IMG/VR virus record: IMGVR_UViG_3300021432_000017
Span: 1 to 43,727 of that record
Reading direction: 5' to 3' (one strand)
DNA: 43,727 nt
Source of the DNA: a virus
Below the pieces are notes generated by a model. That model was not told the DNA's origin, made no database searches, and saw only the letters and a list, made by a program, of their open reading frames with translations. How positions within the stretch are numbered: the stretch's first letter is position 1; each line of letters begins with the position of its first letter. Below are positions 7,978 through 22,140 of this stretch, piece by piece. The position numbers and the translations under genes are program-made.

Positions 7978-8229
7978 ATGAGAATCACTGGACTTGAGGC
8001 TCTTACCCCCGAACAAGTTAAACAGCTTGGCACCTGCGAGATCTGCGGTGCCGTTGCAACCAACTTCACCCGGAATGTCTTTTTTGAGTACAGATTTGAC
8101 AAGCCCTGGGTCGATAATGTGTCGCCGGGCGAGCTTCACCGCCGATGCGACGAGCATCCCCACGGGTCAAGGGTTGTTGATATAGTCGAGGGCCCAGTGT
8201 CCTATCTTGCTCGAACCCTCAACACTTAG
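7978..8229 (+). CDS. Small zinc-knuckle moron protein
   Basis: 83 residues on the plus strand between the capsid and connector genes, both minus. ATG 7978 follows GAGGTG; a start at 7954 is possible but has no ribosome site. CEIC near residue 19 and CDEHP near residue 60 make a C-x2-C plus C/H pair that could bind zinc. A -10-like GATAAT lies at 7956-7961, and the gene ends just before a strong hairpin. Orientation, own signals and isolation make it a moron. I do not recognise the family. Confidence 0.65.
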   Translation: MRITGLEALTPEQVKQLGTCEICGAVATNFTRNVFFEYRFDKPWVDNVSPGELHRRCDEHPHGSRVVDIVEGPVSYLARTLNT

Positions 8230-8233
8230 GGTT

Positions 8234-8261
8234 GCCCGCCCTACCTCTGCGTAGGGCGGGC
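8234..8261. terminator. Hairpin between convergent genes
   Basis: GCCCGCCCTAC (8234-8244), a 6-base loop, then GTAGGGCGGGC (8251-8261): a perfect 11-bp stem between the ends of the plus-strand moron (8229) and the minus-strand capsid gene (8303). It has no clear T run on either side, so it may end transcription in both directions with help or protect 3' ends. A second small inverted repeat (AACCCT/AGGGTT, 8214-8233) lies next to it. Confidence 0.65.
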
Positions 8262-8302
8262 TAGGAAAGGGGCGCTCCGCCGTGGGACGCCCCAAACCAT
8301 GT

Positions 8303-9943
8303 TTATGCGCCGATTGCGGTTGCGCCGTATGCTCCGAGGCCAGTGATGAAGCCGTAGAGATGCGGTGTGCGCGAGGCCAGCACAATTTCCGAGTACACGC
8401 CGCGGGTCCACTTGCGGCTGGTGATCGGATAGAGCAGGCCGTACAGTTCGCGCCGGCACATCACTTCGCGGGTGGTTCCCATGCGGCTCGCGCCGTAGGG
8501 GGCCGGAAGCTTGGCGGTGTCGAACAGGATCGTGCCGCTCGGCAGTTGCGGGTGGAAGATCAACGGAATCGCGTCTCCGCCGTTCGGTGCGAAGCGGTTG
8601 AAGTATTGCTTCGGTGCCGACTTAATGGAGAAGTCATTCGACTCGTTGACATTGATAAGGAAGTTCGCCACCGGGGAAGCCGAGCTACCCGTCAACAGGG
8701 CCTGCGAGATAGCTGCAGTCTGGTCTGCTGAGTAGTAGATCGCCGTGGGAGCGGACTGAACCTGCTGGAACGTCTGGAGGATCGTATCAAACTGGCTGAT
8801 CGAACCCAGAATCGTGCCCTGCGTCAACCCGCCGGCACCAGCATCCACCCACGGTGCCGTGATCGGGAAGCCATTGGAGTACGTCGCATTCGCAGCGAAG
8901 TACAGCATACCGTCCATGTCGAGGCTGTTGGTCGAGAGGTCAACCGAGAATCCCTGCAGGCTGGCGGGAGCGTAGGCGGCAGTTTGCGTGCCCTGCGCCT
9001 GGCCAGTGTAGACGAAGTTCGGGTTGTTGGTGATAAACGTTAGCTTAGCGTTCGCTGTCGTTGGGGCGCTGGCATCAATGATGTCAACGAACCACGCATA
9101 GGCGAAGGCGCCGCGGGTCGGTGTGGCCTTGAAGGTCGCGGTGCAGGTGTTGCTTGAGCCGCTGGTCACCACAACATTCGAAGACGCCGAGACGATCGAA
9201 GTTCCACCGTTGATGGTGTCCGTGGTGCCGTCAGCGTTAGTCCGCACATACTGAGTGGTCAGGCCGTTGGTCACGGTGTTGCTCGGGCTGGTTGCAGCGC
9301 GCCAGGTCAAAGCCACGACGCGAGCCGAGACATTGGTAGCGGTCGGGATCGTGCTGACCGTGCCGGTCTGAAGCGTCGCTACCGGGGTGTTGGCGGTGCC
9401 AAGCTGGAGAGAGGTGTTGCCACCCAACAGCGTGCCTTCCTCGGCGAGGAAGTAGGCCAAAAGCAGGGTCTCAGCATCGTCGCCCAGAACATCGGTAAAG
9501 CCCTCAGACGCCGACTGCGATTCAAAGGTCGCGTAGGAATCGAGACCAAGCGAAGCGTAGGTTGCGGTGAAGTCTTTCTCCGTCACTGAACGGAAGGCGT
9601 TGCGATTGCCTTCAGACAGTCCGATGAAGGTATTGGTTGCGTTGGGAGACAGGATCGCCTTCCAGTGTGCCGCCGTACCGGATCCCGCATTGAACTTCGG
9701 GGTGCGGGGGGTCGTGTTGCGAATCGGGGTGTAGACGGGGAAGATGTTGAAGACGGGCGGCCGAAGGTCGTAGAAGTTCAGCCCGGTCGTGGTGAGAAAG
9801 CCCTGGGTTGTGGCGTCCTTCATGAACTGCGCGGTGAATGCCTTCCGCTGATCCGGCTGCATTCCTTTCGTCTTTTCGCGCAGCGCATTGCCGATCTGGA
9901 CCGCCTTAAGGTAGTCGTTTTGAGAGAATCCACCAAAATGCAT
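8303..9943 (-). CDS. Major capsid protein (HK97-like) with large central insert
   Basis: 546 residues, long for an HK97-fold capsid. The N-terminus is helical (scaffold-like, about 1-60). A region around 70-190 holds ordinary fold elements, and residues about 180-340 are Thr/Ser/Val-rich and look like an inserted Ig-like domain. The C-terminus (GTTREVMCRRELYGLLYPI, ending ITGLGAYGATAIG) looks like the capsid core. AGGAGA precedes ATG 9943. It follows the protease/scaffold gene and precedes the connector. Assignment is by position, size and composition; no search was possible. Confidence 0.8.
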   Translation of the reverse strand: MHFGGFSQNDYLKAVQIGNALREKTKGMQPDQRKAFTAQFMKDATTQGFLTTTGLNFYDLRPPVFNIFPVYTPIRNTTPRTPKFNAGSGTAAHWKAILSPNATNTFIGLSEGNRNAFRSVTEKDFTATYASLGLDSYATFESQSASEGFTDVLGDDAETLLLAYFLAEEGTLLGGNTSLQLGTANTPVATLQTGTVSTIPTATNVSARVVALTWRAATSPSNTVTNGLTTQYVRTNADGTTDTINGGTSIVSASSNVVVTSGSSNTCTATFKATPTRGAFAYAWFVDIIDASAPTTANAKLTFITNNPNFVYTGQAQGTQTAAYAPASLQGFSVDLSTNSLDMDGMLYFAANATYSNGFPITAPWVDAGAGGLTQGTILGSISQFDTILQTFQQVQSAPTAIYYSADQTAAISQALLTGSSASPVANFLINVNESNDFSIKSAPKQYFNRFAPNGGDAIPLIFHPQLPSGTILFDTAKLPAPYGASRMGTTREVMCRRELYGLLYPITSRKWTRGVYSEIVLASRTPHLYGFITGLGAYGATAIGA

Positions 9944-10004
9944 TTTTGTATCTCCTGGTTATGAATTTCGGCGGAGTTAAAGGGGGTAGACGTTCAGAGG
10001 CGTC

Positions 10005-11384
10005 TTAGACGGCAACGATATCGGCTTCTTTGAGGGCTTTGGCAAAATCCCCACCTTCCATGCCTGGGGGCATGAATGTGGCGAACTCGGAGATGGTTTC
10101 CGTGATGCCAAACTGGTTGCCCTTGCCGAGCAGATCGGTGACGTCGATGCCAGATGCGGCGGCTGGGGTCGCGGGCGTGGCGGCAAGCTTGGTCATCAAC
10201 TCCGCAAACTTCGCTGTCAGGTCGTCTAGCTTCTTCTGGATGTCGCCAGCGGGCGCGGCAGGCGTAGCGACAACTGGGGTGTCAAGCGACTTCTTGAAGT
10301 CCGCCACCGAAGCCTTCTCGTGCTCTTCCGGTTCGTTCTCTTCCATCGCAGCCTTGCAGGCCTTCATGCACTTCTCGATGTGCTCGCCGAACGCGTCATG
10401 CTTGTCCTCGATTGCCTTGTGAACTTTTTCGACATGATCGCAAAGCGCCTCGTGCTTGTCCTTGAGGCCTTCGAGATGATCGTGCAGGGTCTTTGCCGCC
10501 TTCTTGTAACCGGCAACATCAGTGATTTTCATTGCATTCTCCGTGCCGCCAGTTGCGGCTTTTTCGCTCTTCCAATCATCCGGAAGTAGGTTTGTCAGGC
10601 CCAGTGTTTTTGCTCTGGACTCGATGTGTCGTTTTGCTTCGGCGGGGTCTTTCGCTCTGCCAACGTCGTGGATGGCGTTGCGTAGGTCAGAGTCGTTGTG
10701 GATGGGGAAAGATCCATCAGGTAGCGCCGCGCCCGAAGCAGCTGCGCTTCTGCGCTCAGCCGCGTCAAAGTCTCGCTTGGCGAGCGTTTCAACCATGCGT
10801 GTAAGCCGCTCAATCCGCACCTCCGTATCATTCGGGATGTCGAACTTCTCCACCGACACCGAGCCATTCGACTTCTGCATCTCAAACGTCCGGTTCTTCA
10901 TCGACTCAATAACAGCTTCTGGGAGACAGGGGGAGTCCACCGCGGAAACTTCCATTGGGTTAGCGATGTACCGAGTACATCCCTTAAAGTCTGGGTCGGG
11001 CCACTTCTTGACGTACTCCCCGCCCTGAGAGAACCCGACAAAAACCCCCGCTCGGTATTTCTTCACCGCATCGGGATCGACCACATGGAAACCCATGCGA
11101 ATGATTTCGTCTTCATCGAAGAAATCCATTGCACGACCCGCGCCAATGGCCTTGAGTTGGTGCATCTCGCGATGCGGCATTAAGGATGGGGTCATCCCCT
11201 CAATCGAGGTGAGTTTTAGCATCTGCGCGGCCTGGGCCTGAAAGTACGGCTTTGACCCCGCATAGTCGCAGACCTCTTTATCGTGGTCAGGCTTCTGCGC
11301 CGTCACCTTACCATAGACAAAGAGGCTGCCATCCGTCTGCTCCTCGATCTTCGAGAGCGGAATGAACTTACGAAACTGTTCCAT
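10005..11384 (-). CDS. XkdF-like prohead protease fused to scaffold-like region
   Basis: 459 residues. Residues about 1-170 match the XkdF-type phage protease family as I recall it: FVYGKVTAQ, EVCDYAGSKPYF, REMH, VDPDAVKKYRAGVF, GFSQGGEYVKKWPD, RYIANPMEVSAVDSPCLPEAV. The middle (about 275-370) is a His/Cys/Lys/Glu-rich helical stretch (HDHLEGLKDKHEAL and similar), followed by a Pro/Ala linker and a final helix. Such protease-scaffold fusions mature the capsid that is encoded next. An AAAGGG site precedes ATG 11384. Confidence 0.75.
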   Translation of the reverse strand: MEQFRKFIPLSKIEEQTDGSLFVYGKVTAQKPDHDKEVCDYAGSKPYFQAQAAQMLKLTSIEGMTPSLMPHREMHQLKAIGAGRAMDFFDEDEIIRMGFHVVDPDAVKKYRAGVFVGFSQGGEYVKKWPDPDFKGCTRYIANPMEVSAVDSPCLPEAVIESMKNRTFEMQKSNGSVSVEKFDIPNDTEVRIERLTRMVETLAKRDFDAAERRSAAASGAALPDGSFPIHNDSDLRNAIHDVGRAKDPAEAKRHIESRAKTLGLTNLLPDDWKSEKAATGGTENAMKITDVAGYKKAAKTLHDHLEGLKDKHEALCDHVEKVHKAIEDKHDAFGEHIEKCMKACKAAMEENEPEEHEKASVADFKKSLDTPVVATPAAPAGDIQKKLDDLTAKFAELMTKLAATPATPAAASGIDVTDLLGKGNQFGITETISEFATFMPPGMEGGDFAKALKEADIVAV

Positions 11385-11673
11385 GCTTGGCCCTTTCGAC
11401 TGCCCTTAATGCTTTGCGCGCCTTCACCCACTGCCGCCCGCTCATGCCCACCGGTCTGCGGGGCTTGGTTGACTGGAAGCGATGGCCAGGTTTGTTCTCA
11501 TGAAGGCGTGCGGCTATGCTGGCAGATTCGCGCGCCCTGCGTAGTCTCTTCAGCTTGGCCTTAAGGTGATCTGGCAACCGCGCTTCAAGAACTGCCCGCT
11601 CTAAAGCCGCCGCGGATTCCTCTTCGCTTGGCATTTCCGAGAGATTGAACCCGTTGAAATCGCCGTAGCTCAC
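11368..11673 (-). CDS. Small basic helical protein, unknown
   Basis: 101 residues, GTG start 11673 overlapping the previous stop (GTGA). The start of the protein (SYGDFNGFNLSEMPSEEESAAALERAVLE) is acidic; the rest is rich in Arg/Lys and Ala (LKAKLKRLRRARESASIAARLHENK, ending QWVKARKALRAVERAKHG). It sits between portal and protease genes and its end overlaps the protease start by 17 bases. It may be a head-assembly or nucleic-acid-binding accessory. No family recognised. Confidence 0.7.
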   Translation of the reverse strand: MSYGDFNGFNLSEMPSEEESAAALERAVLEARLPDHLKAKLKRLRRARESASIAARLHENKPGHRFQSTKPRRPVGMSGRQWVKARKALRAVERAKHGTVS

Positions 11674-11834
11674 TTGGCCTCCGTCACAATCAGCCGCTTG
11701 GTGTCGATGTCGAAAGACTTCCCGCCAGCGACCACGCGGATCTGATCGACAAGCTTCGTGTAGACGTTTCTCTCGGTCGCAATTCCGGTGATGCCTAAGG
11801 CTGGATCGGTTACCGTGTCGCTCAATCGAATCAT
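11670..11834 (-). CDS. Small 54-residue head-region protein, unknown
   Basis: 54 codons from ATG 11834, overlapping the stop of the upstream gene by ATGA, and ending in TGA that overlaps the next GTG start. The sequence (MIRLSDTVTDPALGITGI, then KLVDQIRVVAGGKSFDIDTKRLIVTEAK) looks like a small beta-rich fold. The coupling at both ends supports that it is translated. Function unknown. Confidence 0.7.
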   Translation of the reverse strand: MIRLSDTVTDPALGITGIATERNVYTKLVDQIRVVAGGKSFDIDTKRLIVTEAK

Positions 11835-12100
11835 TTCTCTGGCTCCGCAAAGATGATGGTCGTCTCCGTCAGTGCAAAATCGTTGACGTCTCGCTTCTTT
11901 GTCTCCGTGAATCCCTGTATGGCAACGCCAGTGGATTCGATTGCGTCCGCTATTTTTCGTAATCTCTCCGCGACACGCTTAGAGCTGACGCCGAACCGGT
12001 AACCCGAACCGCTTATTGCCTCTTCGCCGGGCTCCGACTTAGCAACGGCGTCCACTGGAAAGCCTGAGTCTGGACCATATAAACTCGCCACTTCGCTCAC
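11831..12100 (-). CDS. Small head-region protein, unknown
   Basis: 89 residues from GTG 12100, which overlaps the portal-MuF stop (GTGA). It has a helix with VSSKRVAERLRKIADAIESTGV, followed by FTETKKRDVNDFALTETTIIFAE. An upstream extension to 12130 would lie inside the portal gene and is less likely. It may be a structural or accessory head protein; no family recognised. Confidence 0.65.
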   Translation of the reverse strand: MSEVASLYGPDSGFPVDAVAKSEPGEEAISGSGYRFGVSSKRVAERLRKIADAIESTGVAIQGFTETKKRDVNDFALTETTIIFAEPEK

Positions 12101-14358
12101 TTTTTCACCTCGGTCACAACTAGCGCGCACTCGCAGTTGGGGTGCGCGTCGGGTGGCGCGAAGACTCCCGGCGCATACTCATGACCCACAGCAACGCTGC
12201 CCTTCAGCGCATACAGATCGCAGTTGTCGCAGCACTTGTGGTCTGCGCTGACCTGCCACTTCGTCTTCGTAATCACGCCTGACTGCACCCATGACTGCAG
12301 ATTCCCAAAGCTCTGCGACCGTGCAATCTCTGTCTTGGCAATCATCTCGGCTCGGTCGTTCGAGAAGACCTGCGAGCCTTCGATGACTGCGGCAAGCTGA
12401 CTCTTGGTCCAACCCTCTTCAAACGCTTGCGCTACGGTCTTCTTGATGTCGTCGCGCGTCGTCTCGGAGATGGCCCACTTCGCTTCTGGGTTGTCCACCC
12501 AGTCATTTCCGGCGCGCTTCATGCCGACGAGTTCTGCTGCCCTGTCCTCTGCGAACTTCCGCGCATAGCTTCCCGCAACACGCTGCACGACGGCCGAGTC
12601 AGCGCCGTACGACGTTAAAGCCTGCTGCGCGCCTACCAGAACGCCCTGCTCTGCGGCATAGACCAGATCGCCTTCAATCTCATGGATGAGCTGATACCAG
12701 CCAAAGTCGGCGTCCTCAATCAGCTTGTTCGTCTTGTCGTCCTTCTTGACTTTGCCGTAGCCTGCTGCGATCGACTTCGCTACTCGCTGTGCCTGGGCCT
12801 TGAAGAACTTCGACAACGTGCTCTGCATCCGCGTCTTTGCCACCATCGAACCAGAGGTGAATTCGTGGCCCTTGAAACTGGCGTGGTTGATGTGCGCCTT
12901 ATTCGCCGGTGAGGTTGACTCCTTCTCCTCTGCCTGCTGCTGATCTTGTTCCATCTGCTGACCAATCTGGTCGAGCAGGATAATCGTTGCTCCCGCGGTC
13001 ACCGTCAGCTCGTTCGCCATCGGCTCATCGCTTGGGTCCATGCCGTCAAGCTCTCGGGCTTCGTTCCTCGTCATCCGCCCGGTGTTGACCTTGCTTGCGA
13101 TGATGACTTCTTGGACTGCAGGGTCTACGTCCTCTTCAGACTCCCACTCAAACTCCAGATCCGGCTTCTTGAGCAGGTACTGAATGATGTAGTTCAGCGT
13201 GTCCTTCGTGAAAGCCGCCAGGGACACCTCGCCAGATTCTTTCGATACCTCGGCAGACTTCTCCGCACTCGCGCGGTTCATCTGCTTGATTAAATTCTGC
13301 GGCGACTCGTCAAAGCAGTAGCAAACCAGCTTGACGAGGTAGTCTTCGGTGGTGTCCGTCAGCGCCTGCTGCTTAGCCCATTCAACCGAATGGCCTGACG
13401 TCTTGCCTGCCGGGGCCATGATGAGTCTGCGACGCTTCGCCAGGTTACCGGCGAGTAGGTTGTCGAGCCACGTCTGGAACTGCTTGATCTGGTCAGGCGT
13501 CCACCCATCGGGCGCGAACAGGAAGCCTTCGGGGACGTTGCCTTCGGTGTAGTAGTCCTTGAGGAACTGCTGACGTCTCGAAGCAATGTCCAGCGTGACG
13601 ATGATTCTTTCAACTGGAGAGCATCCCCAGCGGGTAAACGGTCTTGGGTTTCTTGGCCGATAAACCAACTGGTCTTGCGTCAAGCCCTTGGCTTTTTTGT
13701 CTGCCGTTACCTGCGTGCCTGCGATGTTGTTGGTGGGCAGGCCTAAGATGATTTGCTGATACGCCGGGTTCGGCGGCGTGGGGACGAAGCCTTGCTCGTC
13801 AATGAGCGGCGTGATAGTGGAACCGGAAATGACACGTAATTGAAATACGTCGCCGAGTAGATTCTTGACAGGTAGGATCGATCCCGCGTCGCATATAAGG
13901 ACGTCGTCGAGCCACATGTTGATCCATTGCTGAAAGCTGTGGTGCCCGTCAGGGAACTCGAAGAGGCTGGTGATGGCTTGGATTTCGCCTGCCGACTTGG
14001 TTTCTCTGCCTTTGTAGTCACCCTTCTTCTCCCCTGGCACTGGCTTGAGCCGGATCTGCCACTTCTTTGAACCAATCTCGCGCTTCTTCTTGTCGATGAC
14101 CATTGCACAGAGGTCAAACGACTGCGCGACGTGTCTGAGCTGCTGAAACGTTACCCGCTGATCGCCGCGGGGCTGGTACGTGAGGTTGAGGCCGGGCGTG
14201 AAGTCCCATGACCGAAACCCCATGTTGGGCGGGGTGAACGGCTGGATCGGCTGGAGAGGAGAGTCCCACGACCCCGGCGTGATGCCCTCAATGGTGTCGC
14301 CGGCCGGATTGAATATGGGGCGAAGCTCCCCGGCAAGCTTTTTCCAAAGTGGCGGCAT
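12097..14358 (-). CDS. Portal protein fused to MuF/SPP1 gp7-like head morphogenesis domain
   Basis: 753 residues. Residues about 60-470 are portal-like (Gln-rich binding regions, EEDVDPAVQEVIIASKVNTGRMTRNEAREL near 410-440). Residues about 560-753 match the MuF/gp7 domain: FSNDRAEMIAKTEIARSQSFG, then DHKCCDNCDLYALKGSV, ending PPDAHPNCECAL with the family's Cys and His residues. Portal and gp7 are usually two genes; here one frame covers both with no stop. The protein forms the DNA gate in the procapsid; the MuF part may be an internal or minor head component. It starts with TAATG overlap after the small gene upstream. Confidence 0.85.
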   Translation of the reverse strand: MPPLWKKLAGELRPIFNPAGDTIEGITPGSWDSPLQPIQPFTPPNMGFRSWDFTPGLNLTYQPRGDQRVTFQQLRHVAQSFDLCAMVIDKKKREIGSKKWQIRLKPVPGEKKGDYKGRETKSAGEIQAITSLFEFPDGHHSFQQWINMWLDDVLICDAGSILPVKNLLGDVFQLRVISGSTITPLIDEQGFVPTPPNPAYQQIILGLPTNNIAGTQVTADKKAKGLTQDQLVYRPRNPRPFTRWGCSPVERIIVTLDIASRRQQFLKDYYTEGNVPEGFLFAPDGWTPDQIKQFQTWLDNLLAGNLAKRRRLIMAPAGKTSGHSVEWAKQQALTDTTEDYLVKLVCYCFDESPQNLIKQMNRASAEKSAEVSKESGEVSLAAFTKDTLNYIIQYLLKKPDLEFEWESEEDVDPAVQEVIIASKVNTGRMTRNEARELDGMDPSDEPMANELTVTAGATIILLDQIGQQMEQDQQQAEEKESTSPANKAHINHASFKGHEFTSGSMVAKTRMQSTLSKFFKAQAQRVAKSIAAGYGKVKKDDKTNKLIEDADFGWYQLIHEIEGDLVYAAEQGVLVGAQQALTSYGADSAVVQRVAGSYARKFAEDRAAELVGMKRAGNDWVDNPEAKWAISETTRDDIKKTVAQAFEEGWTKSQLAAVIEGSQVFSNDRAEMIAKTEIARSQSFGNLQSWVQSGVITKTKWQVSADHKCCDNCDLYALKGSVAVGHEYAPGVFAPPDAHPNCECALVVTEVKK

Positions 14359-14516
14359 TAGATGTCATCCCGTCGAGTGTCGTAGCACTGCTCGCACCAT
14401 GCGCTGGTCTGCGGGTTATCCTCAGTGATGTCCTCGGGGTAGATTTCGCGGATAAACGGGTCGATGCGAACCCCGACATCCTCTTTGTCTTCGCCGCAGT
14501 GATCGCAAAGTGGCAT
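14358..14516 (-). CDS. 52-residue zinc-knuckle protein
   Basis: ATG 14516 shares a base with the preceding TGA, and its TAA overlaps the portal ATG (TAATG). CDHC near the N-terminus and CEQC near residue 41 make one CxxC pair set; the middle is acidic (EIYPEDITEDNP). It is one of a group of tiny Cys-rich proteins between terminase and portal. Tight coupling on both sides supports a real gene. Function unknown. Confidence 0.7.
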   Translation of the reverse strand: MPLCDHCGEDKEDVGVRIDPFIREIYPEDITEDNPQTSAWCEQCYDTRRDDI

Positions 14517-14761
14517 CAGTCCTCCCTAGCTGGTTGGGGCTTCTTCAGCCACTTACCTACGTCTTCAATCGGTGTCTGCCCGTACTTGGCTTCACACAGA
14601 GCACAGGTGTGCATCACCTGCAATTCAATCGGATCCCACTGAATCTTGTGCTCGCGAATCACTCCGCATGCTGGGCACTTGCGCTTGGTCGAAACATGCA
14701 GCCTGTACTTCGCCAGCAGCCACGGAAAGGTTTTGTACAGCCAGAGGAAGAACCGCCTCAT
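14516..14761 (-). CDS. 81-residue zinc-ribbon protein with basic N-terminal helix
   Basis: ATG 14761 overlaps the previous stop by ATGA. The N-terminus is a hydrophobic, basic helix (FFLWLYKTFPWLLAKYRLHV), then CPAC (29-32) and CALC (about 54-57) form a zinc ribbon, and the end is basic. A longer frame upstream (to 14827) would overlap the preceding gene fully and is rejected. It may act in packaging or bind nucleic acid; the family was not recognised. Confidence 0.7.
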   Translation of the reverse strand: MRRFFLWLYKTFPWLLAKYRLHVSTKRKCPACGVIREHKIQWDPIELQVMHTCALCEAKYGQTPIEDVGKWLKKPQPARED

Positions 14762-14889
14762 TTCGCGAACGCCCTGACGATTCCTTGCCACGTCTTGCAG
14801 TAGACAGAGTGGGTGCCATATCCACAAGACCTAGTGGCGCGCCAACTACCATCCTCGGCTTTGGATAGTTTCCATTTCGACCAGTTCAT
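14758..14889 (-). CDS. 43-residue small protein, unknown
   Basis: ATG 14889 overlaps the preceding TGA (ATGA) and its own TGA overlaps the next ATG. The sequence (MNWSKWKLSKAEDGSWRATR, then CGYGTHSVYCKTW) has two Cys residues nine apart and a basic, Trp-rich start. It was too short for routine gene finding. The chain of couplings supports translation. Function unknown. Confidence 0.6.
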   Translation of the reverse strand: MNWSKWKLSKAEDGSWRATRSCGYGTHSVYCKTWQGIVRAFAK

Positions 14890-14984
14890 GGATGCCTCGC
14901 TTGCATGTCCATAAAGCCAACCATGAGGCCACCGAGGAATATCGCGACAGCTATCCAGTCAAGCCAGTCGAGGCGTCTACGCAT
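14886..14984 (-). CDS. 32-residue single-span membrane protein
   Basis: ATG 14984 lies inside the end of the upstream gene, and its TGA overlaps the next ATG (ATGA). A basic start (MRRRLDWLDW) precedes a hydrophobic stretch (IAVAIFLGGLMVGFM). This is the form of a tiny membrane protein; a role in lysis is possible but there is no direct sign of it. Confidence 0.55.
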   Translation of the reverse strand: MRRRLDWLDWIAVAIFLGGLMVGFMDMQARHP

Positions 14985-15147
14985 GACCCGCTAGATAGCA
15001 GCAAACGGTGCACATATCACGCCCGCCCCTGGATATGGTCAGGACGCTTGAGCAATTGGGGCAACGGCGCTCGATAGACGCCAACGGGATAGCGGGCCGT
15101 GGCGACTTGTCTACAATCTTGTGCAGGCTTCCGGCTTGTCTCACCAT
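14977..15147 (-). CDS. 56-residue zinc-ribbon protein
   Basis: ATG 15147 (with in-frame GTG 15144 overlapping the previous stop) and an AGAGG site. CPNC (29-32) and CTVC (46-49) form a compact zinc ribbon; the N-terminal half is basic. It is the second of a row of small Cys-rich genes behind terminase. Its last bases overlap the membrane minigene. Function unknown. Confidence 0.65.
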   Translation of the reverse strand: MVRQAGSLHKIVDKSPRPAIPLASIERRCPNCSSVLTISRGGRDMCTVCCYLAGHA

Positions 15148-15359
15148 CGTCCTCTCACTTCCTTTGGCCCCGACTCTTCAAGGGCATACGCACGGCTGGT
15201 TACTCGTCGCATCTGCTCATCTGTCCGCAAGGTCTCGTCCGTCTCCATGTAGCAGAGGACACCGCAGTTGTTGCAGAGCCGCTCGCGCAAGCCGATGACG
15301 GTTAGGGGTTGTGTGCAGTTCGGGCAGAGCTGCGTGTCTTCGGTGAGCTTGATTCTCAT
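15141..15359 (-). CDS. 72-residue zinc-ribbon protein
   Basis: ATG 15359 overlaps the terminase stop (ATGA). CPNC near residue 12 and CNNC near residue 29 form a zinc ribbon; the second half is helical and charged. It directly follows the zinc ribbon that ends terminase, so the two ribbons are encoded side by side. Translational coupling to terminase suggests a linked role, for example in DNA packaging (inference). Confidence 0.7.
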   Translation of the reverse strand: MRIKLTEDTQLCPNCTQPLTVIGLRERLCNNCGVLCYMETDETLRTDEQMRRVTSRAYALEESGPKEVRGRW

Positions 15360-16834
15360 TTCGGCCTCACCTTCCCGCACTTGAAGCACTTATCCAGCCC
15401 CGCTTCCTCAACAAACGCTGTCGATCCGCACTCGCACCGATTACGGTTTGAGCCATCGACTAGAATCTCTGACTTCTCGGGCGGTTCGATCACGCCCTCT
15501 TTCGCCATATGCCCAACCTCGCCCCGCATGTATTCGAGGTAGTTGTCTGACCCACTGGCGAGTTCGGTCAACGCCCACACCAACGCATCCATACGGTCTG
15601 GCGAGTCTTGCTTCTCATCCTGTGGGTTCCAATCACACATCTGGTCTTCCAGCTTCGGAAGGCTTCCAACGTGATGTACTCGGTTCTGCTCGTACAATGC
15701 TGCTATTGGTTCTGCGCGAATCGTCTTGCCGCGCGATGCCGTTACCTTCGAATACGAGACATTGGCGTTCTGGTGGCGGATAACCGTCTCCACCATGTCG
15801 CCACCATTGTTGGTCTCTGCGATGATCCTGTCTGCCTGATGGTTCTCGTAGGCGTTGATGGCTATCTTCGCCCATTCATCCGGTGTCGCGATCGTGCTCA
15901 AATCGTCCAGCACATAGAAGTGTTGCGGCCATCGGCCGTCATGCGCGCAGACCACAATGCCGGTTTCGTCTGAGTCTGGATTACTTGTGACTGCTGGGTC
16001 GATCGCCACTACAATCCGCGTCAGCGGCGGTGCTTTATTGACCCGGTTCGCATCAATGTTCGAACGCTTCCACAACGCGTTGGGGTTGTCGTCCAAGACC
16101 TCGGCGTTGAGTTCCTGCCGGCCTAGCCTTGTGCCCTCGTACCGCGTGATGATCTTCGAGTAGAACGCCGGAGCCAGGTTTGACCTGTTCTCATACGTCG
16201 TTCCACGTGTAACAGCCGTGCCCTTATCGGCGATGAGTTGTCGTACCAGCTTCGTGGGTCTAGGTGTGGTTGTTACGACCACTTGTGGCAATTTGCCGAG
16301 CCGCAACCCGAACATTGCCTGATCCCACGATTCCTGGTCGTACCTCCATGCTGCGAGTTCATCGCACCATAGACCGGTGTGCTGCTTCCCTCTAAGCCTG
16401 TCAGGCTCCTCTGCGGTGAAGAGGAGCGACTTTGCCCCGTTCGGCCACTCTAAGCAGCGCCTGGACGGGTAGTAATGCGGTCTCTCGTCCTTCGGGCAGA
16501 CCGCCAAGATCCCCGATTCGCCCTCGACCATCACGTCTCTGAGGTCGTCAGCCGTTGCGGCGATGAGGTTTACGTACTCTGAACCGTTTTTTACCCAAAG
16601 CCTGACTTGCTCTGCACCGCACCGCGTCTTACCAAACCCTCGGCCGGCAAGAATAAGCCATACCGACCAATCCCACTGCGGTGCGAGTTGGTTCGTTCTC
16701 GCCCAGAAACCCCAGTCGTAGAACAGCGTTACGGCTTCTGCGTCCGTCAGCGAAGCAAGCAAGGCCTCGCGCTCAGCTTGCGGCAGGTTGCGTAGCTGAT
16801 CCAGCAAGCCGGTCTGAGAGCTTGGAGCGGACAT
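15356..16834 (-). CDS. terL: Terminase large subunit with C-terminal zinc ribbon
   Basis: 492 residues. Walker A is AGRGFGKT (63-70), Walker B ends LWCDE (about 155-159), and the nuclease part starts with VVAIDPA (Asp279). The motor cuts and pumps phage DNA into the procapsid through the portal encoded downstream. The usual end motif (RMDALVWAL) is followed by about 60 extra residues with CECG and CFKCGK near residues 467-487, a zinc ribbon that typical TerL proteins lack. AGAGG lies before ATG 16834. The gene overlaps the small-subunit candidate by 62 bases. Confidence 0.95.
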   Translation of the reverse strand: MSAPSSQTGLLDQLRNLPQAEREALLASLTDAEAVTLFYDWGFWARTNQLAPQWDWSVWLILAGRGFGKTRCGAEQVRLWVKNGSEYVNLIAATADDLRDVMVEGESGILAVCPKDERPHYYPSRRCLEWPNGAKSLLFTAEEPDRLRGKQHTGLWCDELAAWRYDQESWDQAMFGLRLGKLPQVVVTTTPRPTKLVRQLIADKGTAVTRGTTYENRSNLAPAFYSKIITRYEGTRLGRQELNAEVLDDNPNALWKRSNIDANRVNKAPPLTRIVVAIDPAVTSNPDSDETGIVVCAHDGRWPQHFYVLDDLSTIATPDEWAKIAINAYENHQADRIIAETNNGGDMVETVIRHQNANVSYSKVTASRGKTIRAEPIAALYEQNRVHHVGSLPKLEDQMCDWNPQDEKQDSPDRMDALVWALTELASGSDNYLEYMRGEVGHMAKEGVIEPPEKSEILVDGSNRNRCECGSTAFVEEAGLDKCFKCGKVRPK

Positions 16835-17186
16835 CCTGAACCTCTACTAAGATTGGGCCGTCATCCTCACCTGTGTGCACAGTTTTTTGCGCTACCTTGC
16901 CCTCTACCCTGTCCAGCAACTCTTTGAGCGCGATGATGTCACCCTTTGCGGACATCGCAACCAGCTTGAATGCAATCATTTCCCCGAACGTGGCGTTCTC
17001 GCCGTAGACCTCAACGAAGATCGGCGGTAGCTTGGCCTTCATCTTTTCGGGAATGGGCTTATCTAGCTGATCCTTCAGGTAACCCGTCACCGGGTGCTTC
17101 TTCGGACGACCGCCAGCGTTGCCGGTTTGACCTGGCTTGAAGCAGTACGGAGCTAAATGGGCTGCTTTTTTGCTGTTCTCAGCCAC
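16773..17186 (-). CDS. Terminase small-subunit candidate (DUF5681-like)
   Basis: 137 residues, GTG start 17186. The motif FKPGQTGNAGGRPKK (about 16-30) is the hallmark of DUF5681 proteins, often found directly before phage terminase large subunits. A helical middle (GEMIAFKLVAMSAKGDIIALKELLDRVEGK) follows. It likely recognises phage DNA and hands it to TerL, whose gene overlaps its end. The role as small subunit is from position and family habit. Confidence 0.75.
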   Translation of the reverse strand: MAENSKKAAHLAPYCFKPGQTGNAGGRPKKHPVTGYLKDQLDKPIPEKMKAKLPPIFVEVYGENATFGEMIAFKLVAMSAKGDIIALKELLDRVEGKVAQKTVHTGEDDGPILVEVQDVRSKLSDRLAGSATQPAAS

Positions 17187-17187
17187 G

Positions 17188-17442: not shown

Positions 17443-17443
17443 C

Positions 17444-17824: not shown

Positions 17825-17835
17825 GTAAATCTCCT

Positions 17836-18388: not shown

Positions 18389-18619
18389 ACCGAGAATAGG
18401 CAGGTAACGCTCGCGTAGCTTGCGCCAGAGGCGGGGGCCAAGATGTGCGAGTGGGGTTTGTATCCAGCCTATAGCTATGGACCAGGGCGACTCGCCGCAC
18501 CCGAATTAAATGTCGTTGCTGCCTAGAAGGTGACCACCCCCTATCTAGCTTGGTTTCTTGTACTGCACCCACATAGCAAGTAGAACGAACCCGATAAGAA
18601 CTAGGTCGAAATGCGACTC
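18389..18619 (-). other. Stretch without a confident gene
   Basis: No frame has a usual start with a ribosome site. Just after the stop of the 18620 gene the same frame reads a membrane-like segment (FDLVLIGFVLLAMW, ending KKPS) with no start of its own. That and the open frame below it suggest decayed or read-through coding DNA rather than a control region. Confidence 0.4.
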
Positions 18620-18907
18620 TCACGCTGCCCTCAAGATAGGCTGCCAACCCGCGACAATTTGAGTCGCGCGGTATTCACCCGCGAGAAATCCATCAAGCAC
18701 CCACTCTGGCATCTTCAGGCTGGCTGCTGGGCGATGTATCTCGGCTTCCGTCTTGGTGAAGTTGACGAACGTTGCACGCTTATTCCATATCGCCTGCCCC
18801 GCGTCCACCATCTCGCGAACTGTATCGATCGGCAGGAAACACGCGGCTTTTCCCCTACCACTCTTGTTTGCATAGTGGCAGGGAACCATCTGGATGGCGG
18901 AAGGCAT
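18620..18907 (-). CDS. Small protein of 95 residues, unknown
   Basis: ATG 18907 with GAGG upstream. The sequence (CHYANKSGRGKAACFLPIDTV, then MVDAGQAIWNKRATFVNFTKTEAE and VLDGFLAGEYRATQIVAGW) looks like a compact mixed fold with Cys near positions 10 and 23. It is the first gene after a 110-base gap and may begin the late transcript. No family recognised. Confidence 0.7.
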   Translation of the reverse strand: MPSAIQMVPCHYANKSGRGKAACFLPIDTVREMVDAGQAIWNKRATFVNFTKTEAEIHRPAASLKMPEWVLDGFLAGEYRATQIVAGWQPILRAA

Positions 18908-19017
18908 AGCTCGGCCTCATGTATTGGGACTCACTTTTTGGAGGAGGAAGCTTAACCTCAGCCGGGGAGGGCTGTGGTAAAGGTAAGGCCTGGCTTACCG
19001 AATAACAAGCGAAATCG

Positions 19018-19212
19018 TCATGTTTGTATAAAGCCCACCGCTTCGGCTTTCTTCTTCAAGATGCGGTCGAGCGCCCCACCCATTGGGATCTGCTTCAAGC
19101 CGGCGTACTTCTTCAAGAAGTCCTTGCTGTCCTTGCTGATTTCGACGTGGAGAACTTCTAGCTCCACCGCTGACCGATTGCGCTGCACCATTCTTGGCCG
19201 TCTACCTGGCAC
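19018..19212 (-). CDS. Small CopG/ribbon-helix-helix-like protein
   Basis: 64 residues, GTG 19212 with GGGGG 6 bases upstream. The basic start (PGRRPRMVQRN) is followed by ELEVLHVEISKDSKDFLKKYAGLKQIP and a helix (GGALDRILKKKAEAVG), the strand-helix-helix order of CopG-type repressors. It could regulate the early/late border where it sits. The match is by pattern only. Confidence 0.5.
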   Translation of the reverse strand: MPGRRPRMVQRNRSAVELEVLHVEISKDSKDFLKKYAGLKQIPMGGALDRILKKKAEAVGFIQT

Positions 19213-19250
19213 CGATTACCCCCTTGCGGATTGCCTGCCCTGTTTGAATG

Positions 19251-19448
19251 TCAGCCACGATGCCCCCGGAATCCCATTTCTTGCGTCCAGCGCACCACGA
19301 CATAGTGGAACGAGCGGTGAATATCTTCCCACGACGGAGGCTTGGTCATATCGTCTCTAATCATGTTGTGCTTACGCAGGGCGACTAGCTCCAAACTCTC
19401 AATCAAGGACAGGAATTCTTCCTCTGTTACGACGTATTGTTTCGCCAT
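19251..19448 (-). CDS. Small protein of 65 residues, unknown
   Basis: ATG 19448 preceded by GGTAGATAG with AGAGG further up. The sequence is helical (TEEEFLSLIESLELVALRKHNM) with a basic aromatic end (HYVVVRWTQEMGFRGHRG). It lies between the Cys-rich run and the CopG-like gene. Function unknown. Confidence 0.65.
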   Translation of the reverse strand: MAKQYVVTEEEFLSLIESLELVALRKHNMIRDDMTKPPSWEDIHRSFHYVVVRWTQEMGFRGHRG

Positions 19449-19471
19449 CTATCTACCTCTTCCGCCTTCAA

Positions 19472-19846
19472 CTACCAGCGTGGCCCTGATCCTAAGTATG
19501 GAGTCGTGATACTGCGAGCATTGCGAAGAGTATCCGCATTAGGAGAACATCTACCCTCGCCACCACAGGTCAGGCACGTTCCCATTTGCACCACTTGCCC
19601 CCTACAGGAACAGCCGCTCGAACCGTTGCAGCATTCGGCCTCCCACGAACCGCGTCCGAGACATGCGGGGCATGTAATCATTCGCTCCATTTCTTCTTGG
19701 TATTCTGCTTCCATCTGTTGGTGGTAAAGGCTCTCCATTTCGGATGAGACCTCAGTCAATAGTGCGGCGGCGGTTTCGTCGGCTTCTGCTGACTTCAATA
19801 AGAACTCACGAATCTTGTTCAATATCGTAAAGATGGTTTCGCTCAT
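19472..19846 (-). CDS. Helical protein with DnaJ-like Cys-rich zinc segment
   Basis: 124 residues, ATG 19846 overlapping the previous stop (ATGA). Residues 1-55 are an acidic helix; residues about 59-100 hold CPACLGRG, CC, CSCRG and CLTCGGEG, which resemble the CxxCxGxG units of DnaJ zinc domains. It probably binds zinc and a protein or nucleic-acid partner. It ends a row of small Cys-rich genes (19472-22140). Confidence 0.75.
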   Translation of the reverse strand: MSETIFTILNKIREFLLKSAEADETAAALLTEVSSEMESLYHQQMEAEYQEEMERMITCPACLGRGSWEAECCNGSSGCSCRGQVVQMGTCLTCGGEGRCSPNADTLRNARSITTPYLGSGPRW

Positions 19847-20274
19847 ACGCTGTCTACCTCTTCCGCCTTGGGTGGTGCTGGGAGTGGTTGCCAGTGAGTT
19901 ACGTCATCCAGCGCATCATCGAAACGATCAAACCAAGTAGAGCCCTTCATGATCGCGGCAGATACTGTGCGGATATTGAATGACGCGGTGTAGACCACTA
20001 AGACTTCATCGCTATAAGGAATCCCTTGACCATTTATGTCCGACGCTCGTGGTAACTCGTACTTGCAGTCAATCCACCTCGGCAGTTGTGCCGCCAGCCC
20101 CTCTCCGGTAGCTAATAGCTGTTCCTCTTTGCGCTCAAGATCTTTGATTCGTTCTCCGCGTGCATGATATAGGGCTAGAAGTTCAGAGTAATCGGCTGAA
20201 TCGACATACCATAGATTCCCGTAGCGGAGGTCGATGGCATGTCGCTCCACCGTCTCCGGATCAAATTGGCTCAC
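19843..20274 (-). CDS. DUF551-domain protein
   Basis: 143 residues, GTG 20274 overlapping the preceding stop (GTGA). An N-terminal helix (YSELLALYHARGERIKDLERKEEQLL) leads to a DUF551-like C-terminus: WIDCKYELP, then VLVVYT and the end DVTHWQPLPAPP, which is the family signature (W, LP, VLV, HW-PLP). DUF551 is common in phages and has no known function. A paralogue lies at 20916-21359. Confidence 0.75.
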   Translation of the reverse strand: MSQFDPETVERHAIDLRYGNLWYVDSADYSELLALYHARGERIKDLERKEEQLLATGEGLAAQLPRWIDCKYELPRASDINGQGIPYSDEVLVVYTASFNIRTVSAAIMKGSTWFDRFDDALDDVTHWQPLPAPPKAEEVDSV

Positions 20275-20747
20275 TTCCCCTCCGTAAGGCGTTGGATTTC
20301 AGCGCGTGCTTCTTGTAGCTGAGACTGGAGGGCGTCGATATAAGATCCAACTAGATTTTCCCCCTCCGGTGGCCCGCTCCAGCTAATGCCATGCCTACCC
20401 CCATCGTGTCCCGCAATACGTGATTGCGAAGACCTATATTCTTTCGATGGAGTTGATATCCATTCGTGTTTGATGGTGGCTGGTTCGGCCTTCACTTCGA
20501 GCTTGGCGGCCTGCATTTCTTTCAGGGAGAGGCCACGATGTACTCCGAGATGGCCTTTATCCAAAATGCACCAGCCGTTATACCAACCACATCGTTCATA
20601 GGAAAGCTGCCCATCTACCTTAGATTCGCGCTCAGTGATCGACACGCAATATCCACCATTCGAGCACATTTCGTTCGGGTTGCGGTTCATATCGCGCCCA
20701 CAGTGAGAACAGGTTGTATCGGGTTGCTGCCCATCTACTGGATTCAT
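20271..20747 (-). CDS. Cys-rich N-terminus plus helical protein, unknown
   Basis: 158 residues, ATG 20747 overlapping the preceding stop (ATGA). It starts with a zinc-type segment (CSHCGRD, then MCSNGGYCVS), has CGWYNGWCILDKGHLGVHRG in the middle with further Cys/His, and ends with a helix (SYIDALQSQLQEARAEIQRL). The repeated Cys/His pairs suggest two metal sites. Family not recognised. Confidence 0.7.
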   Translation of the reverse strand: MNPVDGQQPDTTCSHCGRDMNRNPNEMCSNGGYCVSITERESKVDGQLSYERCGWYNGWCILDKGHLGVHRGLSLKEMQAAKLEVKAEPATIKHEWISTPSKEYRSSQSRIAGHDGGRHGISWSGPPEGENLVGSYIDALQSQLQEARAEIQRLTEGK

Positions 20748-20926
20748 AGAGCCTCCCTTCGGAAAAGAATTTCTTCCCCGATCCACCGCGACAGCTCGGG
20801 ACTATTTACGTTGTCGTAGTCCAACAGCATCAACTCCAGCATCGTTAGGTTCAGCAACTTCAGCATGGATTTCCGCTGCTCGTCGGAAATCTGTTGCGGA
20901 ACTGAACTATCGCTCTTATTCGCCAT
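20744..20926 (-). CDS. Small helical protein of 60 residues, unknown
   Basis: ATG 20926 overlaps the end of the upstream gene by 11 bases. The sequence is one or two helices (ISDEQRKSMLKLLNLTMLELMLLDYDN, then PELSRWIGEEILFRREAL). The next gene starts in its stop codon (ATGA). It may be a small regulator; no function can be given. Confidence 0.65.
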   Translation of the reverse strand: MANKSDSSVPQQISDEQRKSMLKLLNLTMLELMLLDYDNVNSPELSRWIGEEILFRREAL

Positions 20927-21359
20927 TGGGAGTGTCCTTCAACGCTTGTATTGGTTGCCAATGAGTAGCTGGACAATCGAACTGCTCGGCTGGAGGGGAA
21001 CCCATCATTCTTGCGAGTTGATAGGGATAAGTCTCGACAGAATAGAAGTTTCCATCGGTAACAAGAACAAGCTGCCCATCCTGCGGCAACTCCTGCCTGC
21101 AATCCCTCCATCCCCCTGCTCGAACTCTAGCCAACTCTGCCTCAGCCTTTTCTGCCCGTTCATTGCATAATCCTCCCTGCTCATCGGGGTAAACACCGAT
21201 TAGTTTTAGTTCAGATAAAAGATGCTCCCTGCGCCAATCGGCGTCGGTGACTTTGGGTTCGCCACCGGATGGCTTCGACTCAAGGCTGCACGGATAGCAT
21301 GGGAGAACGACTCCATTGTCGGTTGACAGTTTCCGCCCACAGTGATTGCATTCGCTCAT
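20916..21359 (-). CDS. Zinc-knuckle and DUF551-like protein
   Basis: 147 residues, ATG 21359 joined to the previous stop as TGATG. The N-terminus has CNHCGRK and LPCYPC (zinc knuckle), then a helical middle, then a DUF551-like end: WRDCRQELPQDGQLVLVTDG and ATHWQPIQAL. It is a paralogue of the 19843-20274 gene in its last half, with a zinc knuckle added in front. Confidence 0.7.
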   Translation of the reverse strand: MSECNHCGRKLSTDNGVVLPCYPCSLESKPSGGEPKVTDADWRREHLLSELKLIGVYPDEQGGLCNERAEKAEAELARVRAGGWRDCRQELPQDGQLVLVTDGNFYSVETYPYQLARMMGSPPAEQFDCPATHWQPIQALKDTPNGE

Positions 21360-21592
21360 CACTTCTCCTCCGTCGCGTTCACGGTTGACCAGCCTTCGAT
21401 GGTGCGGCTTAGTAGGGTAGAGGCGCACTTCTGACCGCAGATGTGTTGGAGGCCCTTGGCATCGTCCTCAATCGTTAGCTCATTCCACGGCGAGAACCAC
21501 ATTTTTATTCCTATCGGGAAGGCCACAATCCAGTGGTTGCTTGGCCCTCTCTGCACTCCGCATACATCACACGAATAAGTTTCTAGTTTCAT
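21359..21592 (-). CDS. 77-residue zinc-binding protein, unknown
   Basis: ATG 21592 overlaps the previous stop (ATGA). CDVC near residue 9 and CGQKC near residue 54 form a treble-clef-like pair around a hydrophobic core (WIVAFPIGIKMWFSPWNEL). The size and Cys spacing suggest a small zinc fold. Function unknown. Confidence 0.65.
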   Translation of the reverse strand: MKLETYSCDVCGVQRGPSNHWIVAFPIGIKMWFSPWNELTIEDDAKGLQHICGQKCASTLLSRTIEGWSTVNATEEK

Positions 21593-22140
21593 GCTGCCCT
21601 CCGTAGTTCTATCCGGCGCATCTTCCGCGTCGTCTTCCATGCCTTCGCGTGCAGGGGCTTGGAATGCTTCACGCAGAGCCCGAACTTTGTGTTCTTGCGA
21701 ATGATGCAGCCGCACTCGGCGCAGCGATCGTGGTGCTGCTCAATCCGACGCCGGTACCTCGTGAAGCACGGCTTGCAGACTCCAAAGACTGTTTTACGCA
21801 TGGGCTTGTCACAGGCGCCGCACTTATACTTCTGCGCGGCTGGCTTTATGCCCGGTCGCTTGTGGCGGCAGCAGCGGCCCGTCTTGTTGTTGTGGCGGAT
21901 TTCGGTTTCGCATACCTCGCACTTTCGAGATGCGCGTTTCATCCTGCAAGCCTGGCCTGCCAAGGAAAACGGTGCCCGTCTCTTCTGTCGCTCTTTTATC
22001 TGCGGAGCGGTGACAAAGATCCGCTTGCCCATCTCCTCGGCTCTGCGCTTCTCTTGCTCGCGGCGCCAATCTGACTTGAATCCATCTGTGCGAAGGTCGC
22101 CGATGATGAATTTATGCAGCTCTAGCTGGTAGTAGTTCAC
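21589..22140 (-). CDS. Protein with three repeated zinc knuckles
   Basis: 183 residues from GTG 22140, which overlaps the methyltransferase stop (GTGA). The N-terminal 80 residues are basic and helical. Then three units follow: CEVC with CCRH, CGAC with CKPC, and CAEC with CVKH, each C-x2-C, about 13 residues with a conserved G, then C-x2-H/C. The tail is strongly basic. The arrangement suggests three zinc modules binding nucleic acid. Genome position beside two methyltransferases and a nuclease gives no clear role. Confidence 0.7.
   Translation of the reverse strand: MNYYQLELHKFIIGDLRTDGFKSDWRREQEKRRAEEMGKRIFVTAPQIKERQKRRAPFSLAGQACRMKRASRKCEVCETEIRHNNKTGRCCRHKRPGIKPAAQKYKCGACDKPMRKTVFGVCKPCFTRYRRRIEQHHDRCAECGCIIRKNTKFGLCVKHSKPLHAKAWKTTRKMRRIELRRAA

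Follow-up and report, generated by a model that had tools for sequence, protein, structure and literature searches.

The virus genome IMGVR_UViG_3300021432_000017, analysed here as a stretch of 43,727 nucleotides (the window), raises the question of whether its many small cysteine-rich proteins are exceptional, and what they might do. A preliminary description had read them as an unusually dense set of small zinc-knuckle proteins with pairs of CxxC motifs. The small cysteine-containing frames that it named are all open reading frames at their positions, and most of the small CxxC frames overlap their neighbours, in agreement with the translational coupling that it proposed. Pairs of CxxC motifs were found in eight genes (14358, 14516, 14977, 15141, 19472, 20916, 21589 and 26317), while the genes at 7978, 20271, 21359, 25439 and 29181 contain a single motif. 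The list had left out a CxxC motif (CDNC) in the MuF half of the portal protein and another in gene 24296. The term zinc knuckle was wrong. The zinc knuckle (zf-CCHC, PF00098) has the motif CX2CX4HX4C, and this Pfam model has no match in ten small proteins of the window and an E-value of only 0.2, below the cut-off, at residues 482-488 of the large terminase (TerL). The proteins are instead read as C4 zinc ribbons, with two cysteine-pair knuckles on β-hairpins, based on their motifs, the AF2 model of one family (family A) and profile matches to zinc ribbons in PDB. All genes given below with both coordinates are on the minus strand, except one.

Counted across the genome, small two-CxxC genes are high-normal in number, which leaves the density claim weak. 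The window contains 0.91 such genes per 10 kb, within the range of 21 TerL relatives (mean 0.42, maximum 1.25), and ranks 5th of 26 when these relatives and four named phages (lambda, 0.21; HK97, 0.25; T1, 0; Hardycor1, 0.44) are included. One home-made gene caller, which misses genes, was used for all genomes; the window is undercounted since 19472, 20271 and 20916 were missed, and the other genomes carry the same handicap. A caller-free six-frame count showed little excess (window, 1.83; TerL relatives, mean 1.56 and maximum 4.50; lambda, 2.27; HK97, 1.51; Hardycor1, 1.11; T1, 0.41). The whole window holds 8 two-CxxC frames, against a mean of 2.3 (maximum 6) in 30 dinucleotide shuffles. With a density inside the relatives' range, genome-wide enrichment was dropped as the main claim. 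A correlation between having a ribbon on TerL and the density of ribbons across the genome (Mann-Whitney p 0.0018, 6 versus 16 genomes) was also set aside, because the six TerL-ribbon genomes fall into two TerL groups and are not independent. The real signal is the position at the terminase-portal junction rather than the genome-wide count, and the part of the cluster that is conserved and tied to this junction says more than a number does.

We regard the ribbons at 7978, at 19-22 kb and at 26 kb as unrelated genes of the accessory kind that phages ordinarily carry. The moron-like gene at 7978..8229 is an open frame of 83 aa (CEIC and HRRCDEH) on the plus strand, opposite to its neighbours, and its protein has no Pfam or NCBIfam match and one PHROG match at E 0.37. 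The gene at 19472..19846 (124 aa) encodes a DnaJ-like cysteine-rich stretch (CPAC...CSC...CLTC; weak DnaJ model, E 0.16), and the one at 20271..20747, an open frame of 158 aa with an ATGA start, has one CSHC near the N-terminus. An N-terminal ribbon and a DUF551-like C-terminus are encoded at 20916..21359 (147 aa; phrog_924, 2.9e-5; DUF551, E 0.045, below the cut-off), followed by an open frame of 77 aa at 21359..21592 with CDVC and, later, CGQKC. The three knuckle units reported for the 183-aa protein at 21589..22140 were recovered from the sequence (CEVC/CCRH, CGAC/CKPC and CAEC/CVKH); this protein has no relative in searches of phages and viral contigs. The gene at 25439 may encode an HNH protein (phrog_5718, E 0.065).

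The junction itself is compact. TerL (15356..16834, 492 aa) contains an N-terminal ATPase and a C-terminal nuclease domain (Terminase_6N, 1.6e-27; Terminase_6C, 8.9e-17; both scores above the Pfam cut-offs), and the portal protein (12097..14358, 753 aa) is fused to a MuF domain (Phage_portal, 2.6e-13; Phage_Mu_F, 3.6e-11). The gene at 16773..17186 is by its position a probable small terminase, with 35% identity to the gene preceding terL in another genome, G001, and a single PHROG match (phrog_26239, unknown function, 8.3e-5). Positions 14358-15359, between terL and the portal gene, are filled by six mini-genes that overlap one another and of which four encode ribbons. In order from terL, these are a family A ribbon of 72 aa (15141..15359) that shares an ATGA overlap with the end of terL, an open frame for a family C ribbon of 56 aa with the pattern CPNC-x13-CTVC (14977..15147), a hydrophobic mini-ORF of 32 aa (14886..14984; best 19-residue KD 1.86), a mini-ORF of 43 aa with two cysteines outside any CxxC and no Pfam match (14758..14889), a family B ribbon of 81 aa (14516..14761), and an open frame for a family D ribbon of 52 aa (14358..14516) that is TAATG-coupled to the portal gene. 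Both mini-ORFs are ATGA-coupled to the next gene. Neighbours overlap by ATGA, GTGA, TGATG or TAATG at 15359, 14889, 14761, 14516 and 14358, and by the same types among the 19-22 kb genes (22140, 21592, 21359, 20747, 20274 and 19846); longer overlaps are found at 15147 (7 nt), 14984 (8 nt) and 20926 (11 nt). The 2 kb after terL hold 4 two-CxxC frames, against a mean of 0.02 (maximum 1) in 300 shuffles. We do not claim that all junction ribbons arose by tandem duplication from one ancestor, as the pairwise signals were weak (15141 versus 14977, p 0.005; 14977 versus the TerL tail, p 0.010; 45 pairs tried with 200 shuffles each and cysteines fixed).

Families C and D are confined to the window. 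The best hits outside it had E-values of 0.31 in one search and 0.027 in another for family C, none convincing, and 0.17 in one search and none in another for family D. The best PHROG for family C was phrog_9188 (5.1e-5).

Families A and B, by contrast with C and D, have relatives, and neither is represented by a Pfam or PHROG family. Members of family B (32-member alignment A7) start with a variable, often hydrophobic N-terminus, which in the window reads 'MRRFFLWLYKTFPWLLAKYR' and is followed by CPACG...CALC. We do not claim membrane anchoring, as only 7/36 B proteins reach a transmembrane-like hydropathy of 1.6. No PHROG is matched consistently (best phrog_21994, 7/32 members, best 4.8e-5), and the family has no match in 50,697 phage records. 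Family A (17-member alignment A8) likewise lacks a consistent PHROG; the PHROG with the largest number of matching members is phrog_24515 (4/17, best 0.0013), and phrog_9188 is matched by 2/17 (best 0.00032). Its AF2 structure, predicted from two sequences, consists of a ribbon plus a helix, with strands flanking both knuckles at a pLDDT of 82-88 over residues 1-40, and gave no Foldseek match at E <= 0.001. The suspicion that such small frames may not be translated fails for both families: closely related pairs bear the mark of purifying selection. This is clearest in family B, where dN/dS was 0.04-0.31 in the 14 pairs with the lowest dS (median 0.44 and maximum 0.97 over all usable pairs). 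For family A, eight of the 14 lowest-dS pairs were at 0.09-0.25 and six at 0.46-0.67 (median 0.35 and maximum 0.79 over all usable pairs).

To place the junction among relatives, a clade was collected by alignment searches with the portal and the protein encoded at 8303 (taken as the capsid protein), which gave 19 relatives and the best 80 of 137 relatives, respectively; single-protein scans with the portal, 8303 and 21589 gave 3, 0 and 0. Two of the seeds, G001 and G002, themselves contain the cassette, but the search was made with portal and capsid alone. Of 93 distinct loci, 72 had a recognisable portal. Adding the window gives 73 loci; 49 of them are unique, and in 36 of these the sequence extends 1.5 kb or more upstream of the portal, unique loci being those that differ in a 300-nt portal piece, so that close strains still count apart. 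Among the matches listed, family B lies within 5 kb upstream of the portal in 33/36 of these loci, the window included, and within 700 nt in 27; it is missing from L243, L250 and L252. A C-terminal ribbon is present in 20/21 unique clade TerLs that are complete at this end, again among the matches listed and with the window included. The numbers that the preliminary description considered exceptional are matched in the clade, an outcome that it had itself named as refuting: 21/21 loci with both TerL and portal have at least one two-CxxC frame between the two (median 2, range 1-4, among the matches listed; L234 and L236 are near-copies).

Outside the clade, TerL relatives lack families A and B and mostly also the TerL ribbon. 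Among the matches listed, 113 TerL relatives had 0 (104 relatives), 1 (seven) or 2 (two) two-CxxC frames within 2 kb after terL and on its strand, while the window has four. The clade counts given above are not like-for-like with these 2-kb controls, as the TerL-portal interval of the clade spans 432-8931 nt. These controls comprise 66 of the best 80 TerL matches, 43 from another search and 4 named phages; they include the clade members L002 and L006 and omit loci cut at the TerL end or short downstream, and the pieces L082-L121. Single frames after terL mean little, as the opposite strand contains two-CxxC frames about as often (13/113, versus 9/113 on the same strand). When run against L002-L182, the A and B models matched only the window, pieces of G001 (both models) and pieces of G002 (B). 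Three loci with a window-type portal (L129, L130 and L131) have terL-portal gaps of 79 nt and 1 nt and an overlap, without a ribbon gene.

The TerL ribbon of the window, CEC and CFKC at the C-terminal end where the preliminary description had placed it, has the form CxC-x13-CxxC and covers residues 467-486 (15377..15436). The AF2 model of TerL is weak overall (mean pLDDT 66.6, pTM 0.40) and places a hairpin tail (pLDDT 62-82) behind a low-confidence linker (34-43). In the window's subclade, a free family A ribbon follows terL. A model of the free ribbon scored the tails of 4/6 outgroup TerLs at 24.7-28.2 bits, compared to a best of 18.2 bits among 62 named background ribbons (64 sequences). 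The two other tails scored 17.9 and 10.3 bits, and for these the link between fused and free ribbons fails; a seventh, L251, was left out because the search pattern missed it. The window's own tail scored only 4.0 bits, which indicates that it is a different ribbon from family A. On a phylogenetic tree, the distribution of the TerL ribbon needs three changes, of which well-supported branches force two. We do not claim two independent gains, as the changes could include losses.

These results place the window in an uncultivated clade of siphovirus-like phages that conserves a set of small ribbons in its packaging module, and the best reading, to which as a whole we give even odds, is that the ribbons would be conserved accessories of the DNA-packaging motor. 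The TerL tail and A would be flexible docking modules that assist TerL in locating or keeping contact with the portal, DNA or the small terminase, B would do the matching job at the portal, and the overlapping start and stop codons would keep synthesis of the ribbons coordinated with that of TerL and the portal. This reading is favoured by the TerL ribbon in 20/21 proteins, the place of family B before the portal, the controls mostly without ribbons, the dN/dS of family B and the fused and free forms of family A. Counted against it are the two outgroup tails that fail, the three loci without B, the higher dN/dS in six A pairs, the lack of convincing relatives of C and D, and L010, a phage outside the tail groups with a ribbon gene just after terL, which means that this position can acquire ribbons even where TerL itself has none. 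RNA polymerase, RNA and restriction enzymes are other targets of zinc ribbons, and none of the junction ribbons has a known homolog that links it to packaging. More tentatively, and with somewhat more doubt than belief, the ribbons may form an undescribed docking system with the TerL ribbon on a flexible tail and A and B as dedicated partners at motor and portal, an A-like ribbon having either joined TerL or become separated from it in the history of the clade.

Alternatively, the junction could be an insertion hotspot for late host-takeover genes that play no part in packaging, their products being micro-proteins that act in transcription or anti-restriction or bind RNA. We consider this unlikely, but it is the likeliest of the rivals. 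The content and length of the junction vary, as those of insertion hotspots do, C and D are private, and L010 has its ribbon without a TerL ribbon. Moreover, the ribbons of RNA polymerase and of the ribosome are similar to A and B in profile comparisons, and there are weak matches to Lar restriction alleviation (PF14354), the best being 18.5 bits for the G001 member of A, against a cut-off of 28.6. The TraR/DksA zinc finger has the spacing C-x2-C-x17-C-x2-C; it has no Pfam match in A or B, and the spacing in the window's family A is x13. A precedent for small phage zinc proteins that can act on host transcription is provided by TraR/Orf73, according to the consulted part of the source (PMC9239242). 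Against this reading, B keeps its place before the portal in 33/36 loci, and an A-like ribbon is part of TerL in at least four outgroup phages; neither is what one expects of a free-floating moron.

It is highly improbable that the ribbons take the place of the HNH endonuclease, which in many phages is reportedly encoded next to the terminase and helps it to cut DNA (Kala et al. 2014). The genomic place, the small size and the cysteine content agree, and a distant portal relative, L127, has by eye an HNH-like gene directly before the portal; however, no Pfam HNH model matches A or B (two A and 32 B members run), no H-N-H pattern is seen by eye in alignments A7 and A8, and the window has a possible HNH gene elsewhere, at 25439. 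Least probable of all is the ordinary reading, a phage whose small zinc genes are at the upper end of normal in number and cluster by chance, an explanation that fits the genome-wide density and a permutation p of about 0.04 for 4/8 two-CxxC genes within six neighbours (70 genes assumed) and that stands for the other ribbons, but is contradicted, as far as A, B and the TerL tail are concerned, by an arrangement conserved across the clade.

We found no description of a zinc ribbon on a phage terminase or beside a portal in the titles and abstract openings of the literature searched. The HNH packaging endonucleases of the HK97 gp74 type are encoded by a small cysteine-rich gene beside the terminase, and A and B share these features but have no HNH model. 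Lambda gpW is, like the junction ribbons, the product of a small gene between terL and portal, but it is annotated as a head-tail adaptor, and the two are set side by side by position and annotation alone. The herpesvirus terminase subunits pUL56 and pUL89 have putative zinc fingers, a likeness to the clade TerL by description, as far as the consulted part of the source goes (PMC5972660). Bacillus phage G has a lineage-specific zinc-ribbon expansion of about 35 copies, and in this respect resembles the window, but is a jumbo phage, and the consulted part of its description mentions no terminase-portal link (PMC7824862). Haloarchaeal tailed viruses (Hardycor1 and the HF1 group) also encode many small CxxC proteins, ten of them hypothetical proteins in Hardycor1, a 45-kb siphovirus; unlike the conserved ribbons of the window, which are inside the assembly module, these are mostly outside it, judging from the consulted portion of the source (PMC7911831). 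One CxxC protein of Hardycor1 is annotated directly before terL. A tblastn search with 15141 gave weak matches to halovirus CxxC proteins (best E 0.3), and no convincing sequence kinship with the window ribbons was found.

Most of what is known about TerL-portal docking and its accessory factors comes from a small number of model phages. The clade offers small, separable parts for testing motor-portal docking, and alignments A7 and A8 define two families that are absent as families from the libraries searched. If, on the other hand, the ribbons prove to act in host takeover, the clade would illustrate how morons can become fixed at a single junction between assembly genes.

Six overlapping mini-genes lie between the genes for the large terminase (TerL, 15356-16834, minus strand) and the portal-MuF protein (12097-14358, minus strand). 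The gene nearest to terL encodes ribbon A (15141), and it is followed by ribbon C (14977), a 32-residue hydrophobic peptide (14886-14984), a 43-residue peptide (14758-14889), ribbon B (14516) and ribbon D (14358), the last of which overlaps the portal start. TerL ends in a CxC/CxxC ribbon of its own. The MuF half of the portal contains the motif CDNC...HPNCEC, a possible further metal site.

The window contains four same-strand frames with two CxxC pairs in the 2 kb after terL. The same 2 kb were inspected in 113 TerL relatives whose sequence covers them, made up of 66 and 43 members of two relative sets, the former from the best 80 matches listed, and four named phages; the clade members L002 and L006 were among them. 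No such frame was found in 104 of these relatives, one in seven, and two in L002 and L010. The opposite strand holds similar numbers (none in 100, one in nine, two in four), so single frames after terL are considered background. In L010, a ribbon gene is located right after terL although its TerL lacks a ribbon. L129-L131 are bacterial contigs whose portal is of the same kind, and in them terL adjoins the portal gene, with gaps of 79 nt and 1 nt and an overlap. By eye, L127 has an HNH-like cysteine-rich gene (4446-4763) directly 5′ of a distantly related portal.

Clade members were identified with portal and presumed capsid protein alignments from the window and its relatives G001 and G002. 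One alignment yielded 19 loci and the other contributed the best 80 of 137, giving 93 distinct loci, with a recognised portal in 72; the window was added for the counts. Among the loci listed, 20 of 21 unique, C-terminally complete clade TerLs, including that of the window, have the C-terminal ribbon; in the exception (L190) the protein terminates after the first ribbon half. Also among the loci listed, family B is located within 5 kb upstream of the portal in 33 of the 36 unique loci whose sequence extends 1.5 kb or more beyond it on that side, and within 700 nt in 27 of those 33. All 21 other clade loci that have both terL and portal contain one to four two-CxxC frames between them, the two genes being 432 to 8931 nt apart. 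As a specificity control, models of A and B from the clade alignments were run on 182 sources (L002-L182 and the window), where both models matched the window and G001, B also matched G002, and neither matched any other source; the G001 and G002 sequences were pieces. TerL also bears a ribbon in a second group (L055-L076; L055, with FCPQC...CPKC, L058, L062, L065, L066, L068, L069, L070, L072, L074 and L076), in which no small two-CxxC gene was called behind terL. On a 111-row TerL tree, the TerL ribbon requires three changes, whether gains or losses, and well-supported branches make two of them necessary.

The dN/dS ratios and the overlapping frames support translation of A and B under constraint, more strongly for B. 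For the 14 pairs with the lowest dS, the ratios were 0.04-0.31 in B, while in A they were 0.09-0.25 in eight pairs and 0.46-0.67 in six. Across all usable pairs, many of which are near saturation, the median was 0.35 (maximum 0.79, 107 pairs) in A and 0.44 (maximum 0.97, 266 pairs) in B. Neither C nor D had convincing relatives in the two locus sets searched, and their support as genes comes solely from the open, coupled frames.

The four two-CxxC proteins of the junction are predicted to be C4 zinc ribbons. For A, the AF2 model from a two-sequence alignment has a mean pLDDT of 70.5, with 82-88 in the ribbon and a weaker helix behind it, and that of TerL (nine sequences; mean pLDDT 66.6, pTM 0.40) shows a low-confidence linker at 429-462 and a better hairpin tail. 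Profile matches in the PDB were RpoM and GATA-factor ribbons for A; for B they were the ribbons of RNase P and RPA12. No Pfam family was above the cut-off for A (two members run) or B, and no consistent PHROG family was obtained for either. A tblastn search of one B member against 50,697 phage records gave nothing at E 0.1; the B of the window gave just 27-residue matches at about E 0.1, mostly to annotated baseplate hubs, which we take as chance.

A model trained on free A ribbons only was used to score TerL tails. Six tails from outgroup members of the clade, with a seventh (L251) left out, scored 28.2, 28.0, 26.9, 24.7, 17.9 and 10.3 bits, compared to a maximum of 18.2 and a median of 3.9 for 62 named background ribbons. 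By these scores, an A-like ribbon is part of TerL in at least four outgroup phages. The tails in the window's subclade scored -4.8 to 9.6 bits and are thus a different ribbon; A is a separate gene there, beside a TerL bearing another ribbon. Fused and free domain pairs often act together. Since ribbons are short, the likeness of A to the outgroup tails may instead be due to convergence. Frames of about 240-290 residues with a C-terminal A-like ribbon also occur in capsid relatives: L253 (10332-11204), L254 (15319-16191), L256 (18046-18768), L258 (16910-17698), L259 (17517-18299) and L264 (15701-16477).

The window is a siphovirus-like phage with 56% GC and genes mostly on the minus strand. A tyrosine-recombinase-like protein recognised by eye (29836-30927) suggests that it is temperate. 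The small CxxC frames named in the preliminary description are present as open frames, and the majority share a few bases with the adjacent gene. Two CxxC pairs are found in eight genes and one pair in five. The gene at 19843-20274 encodes a DUF551 protein (1.6e-7, above cut-off), and nearby 20916 has a weaker DUF551-like end and a ribbon. A pentapeptide-repeat protein was recognised by eye at 28456-29184, where the repeat DNA also keeps the opposite strand and further reading frames open over long stretches; these additional frames are probably spurious.

The density of small two-CxxC genes, said to be unusual, turned out to be only mildly raised. With one gene caller applied to all genomes, the window has 0.91 per 10 kb versus a mean of 0.42 (sd 0.43, maximum 1.25) in 21 TerL relatives, and lambda, HK97, T1 and Hardycor1 have 0.21, 0.25, 0 and 0.44, which places the window fifth of 26. 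A caller-free count showed little excess (1.83 versus a mean of 1.56), while the eight two-CxxC frames exceed the mean of 2.3 in shuffled DNA. The count is ordinary to high-normal. Ribbon-rich phages have been described before, with ten CxxC hypothetical proteins in the 45 kb of Hardycor1 (PMC7911831) and about 35 ribbon copies in Bacillus phage G (PMC7824862), and putative zinc fingers have been described in herpesvirus terminase (PMC5972660). The Hardycor1 annotation has one CxxC protein gene directly before terL. Among the open-licence papers listed, no title or abstract beginning described a phage TerL that carries a zinc ribbon, or a ribbon family beside the portal, and the arrangement is, as far as searched, undescribed.

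The terminase-portal ribbon arrangement is real and conserved within the clade examined, and the analysis shows conserved motifs, positions and constraint. The main rival to a role in packaging, which is the favoured reading, is that the ribbons are host-takeover micro-proteins in an insertion hotspot. The A and B model control favours packaging, whereas the fuller dN/dS values of A and the opposite-strand tally weigh against it; these are roughly balanced and leave the likelihood of a packaging role unchanged. The observations favour no particular binding partner. If the ribbons serve packaging, the TerL tail and A would assist TerL in docking, be it to the portal, to DNA or to the small terminase, with B working at the portal.
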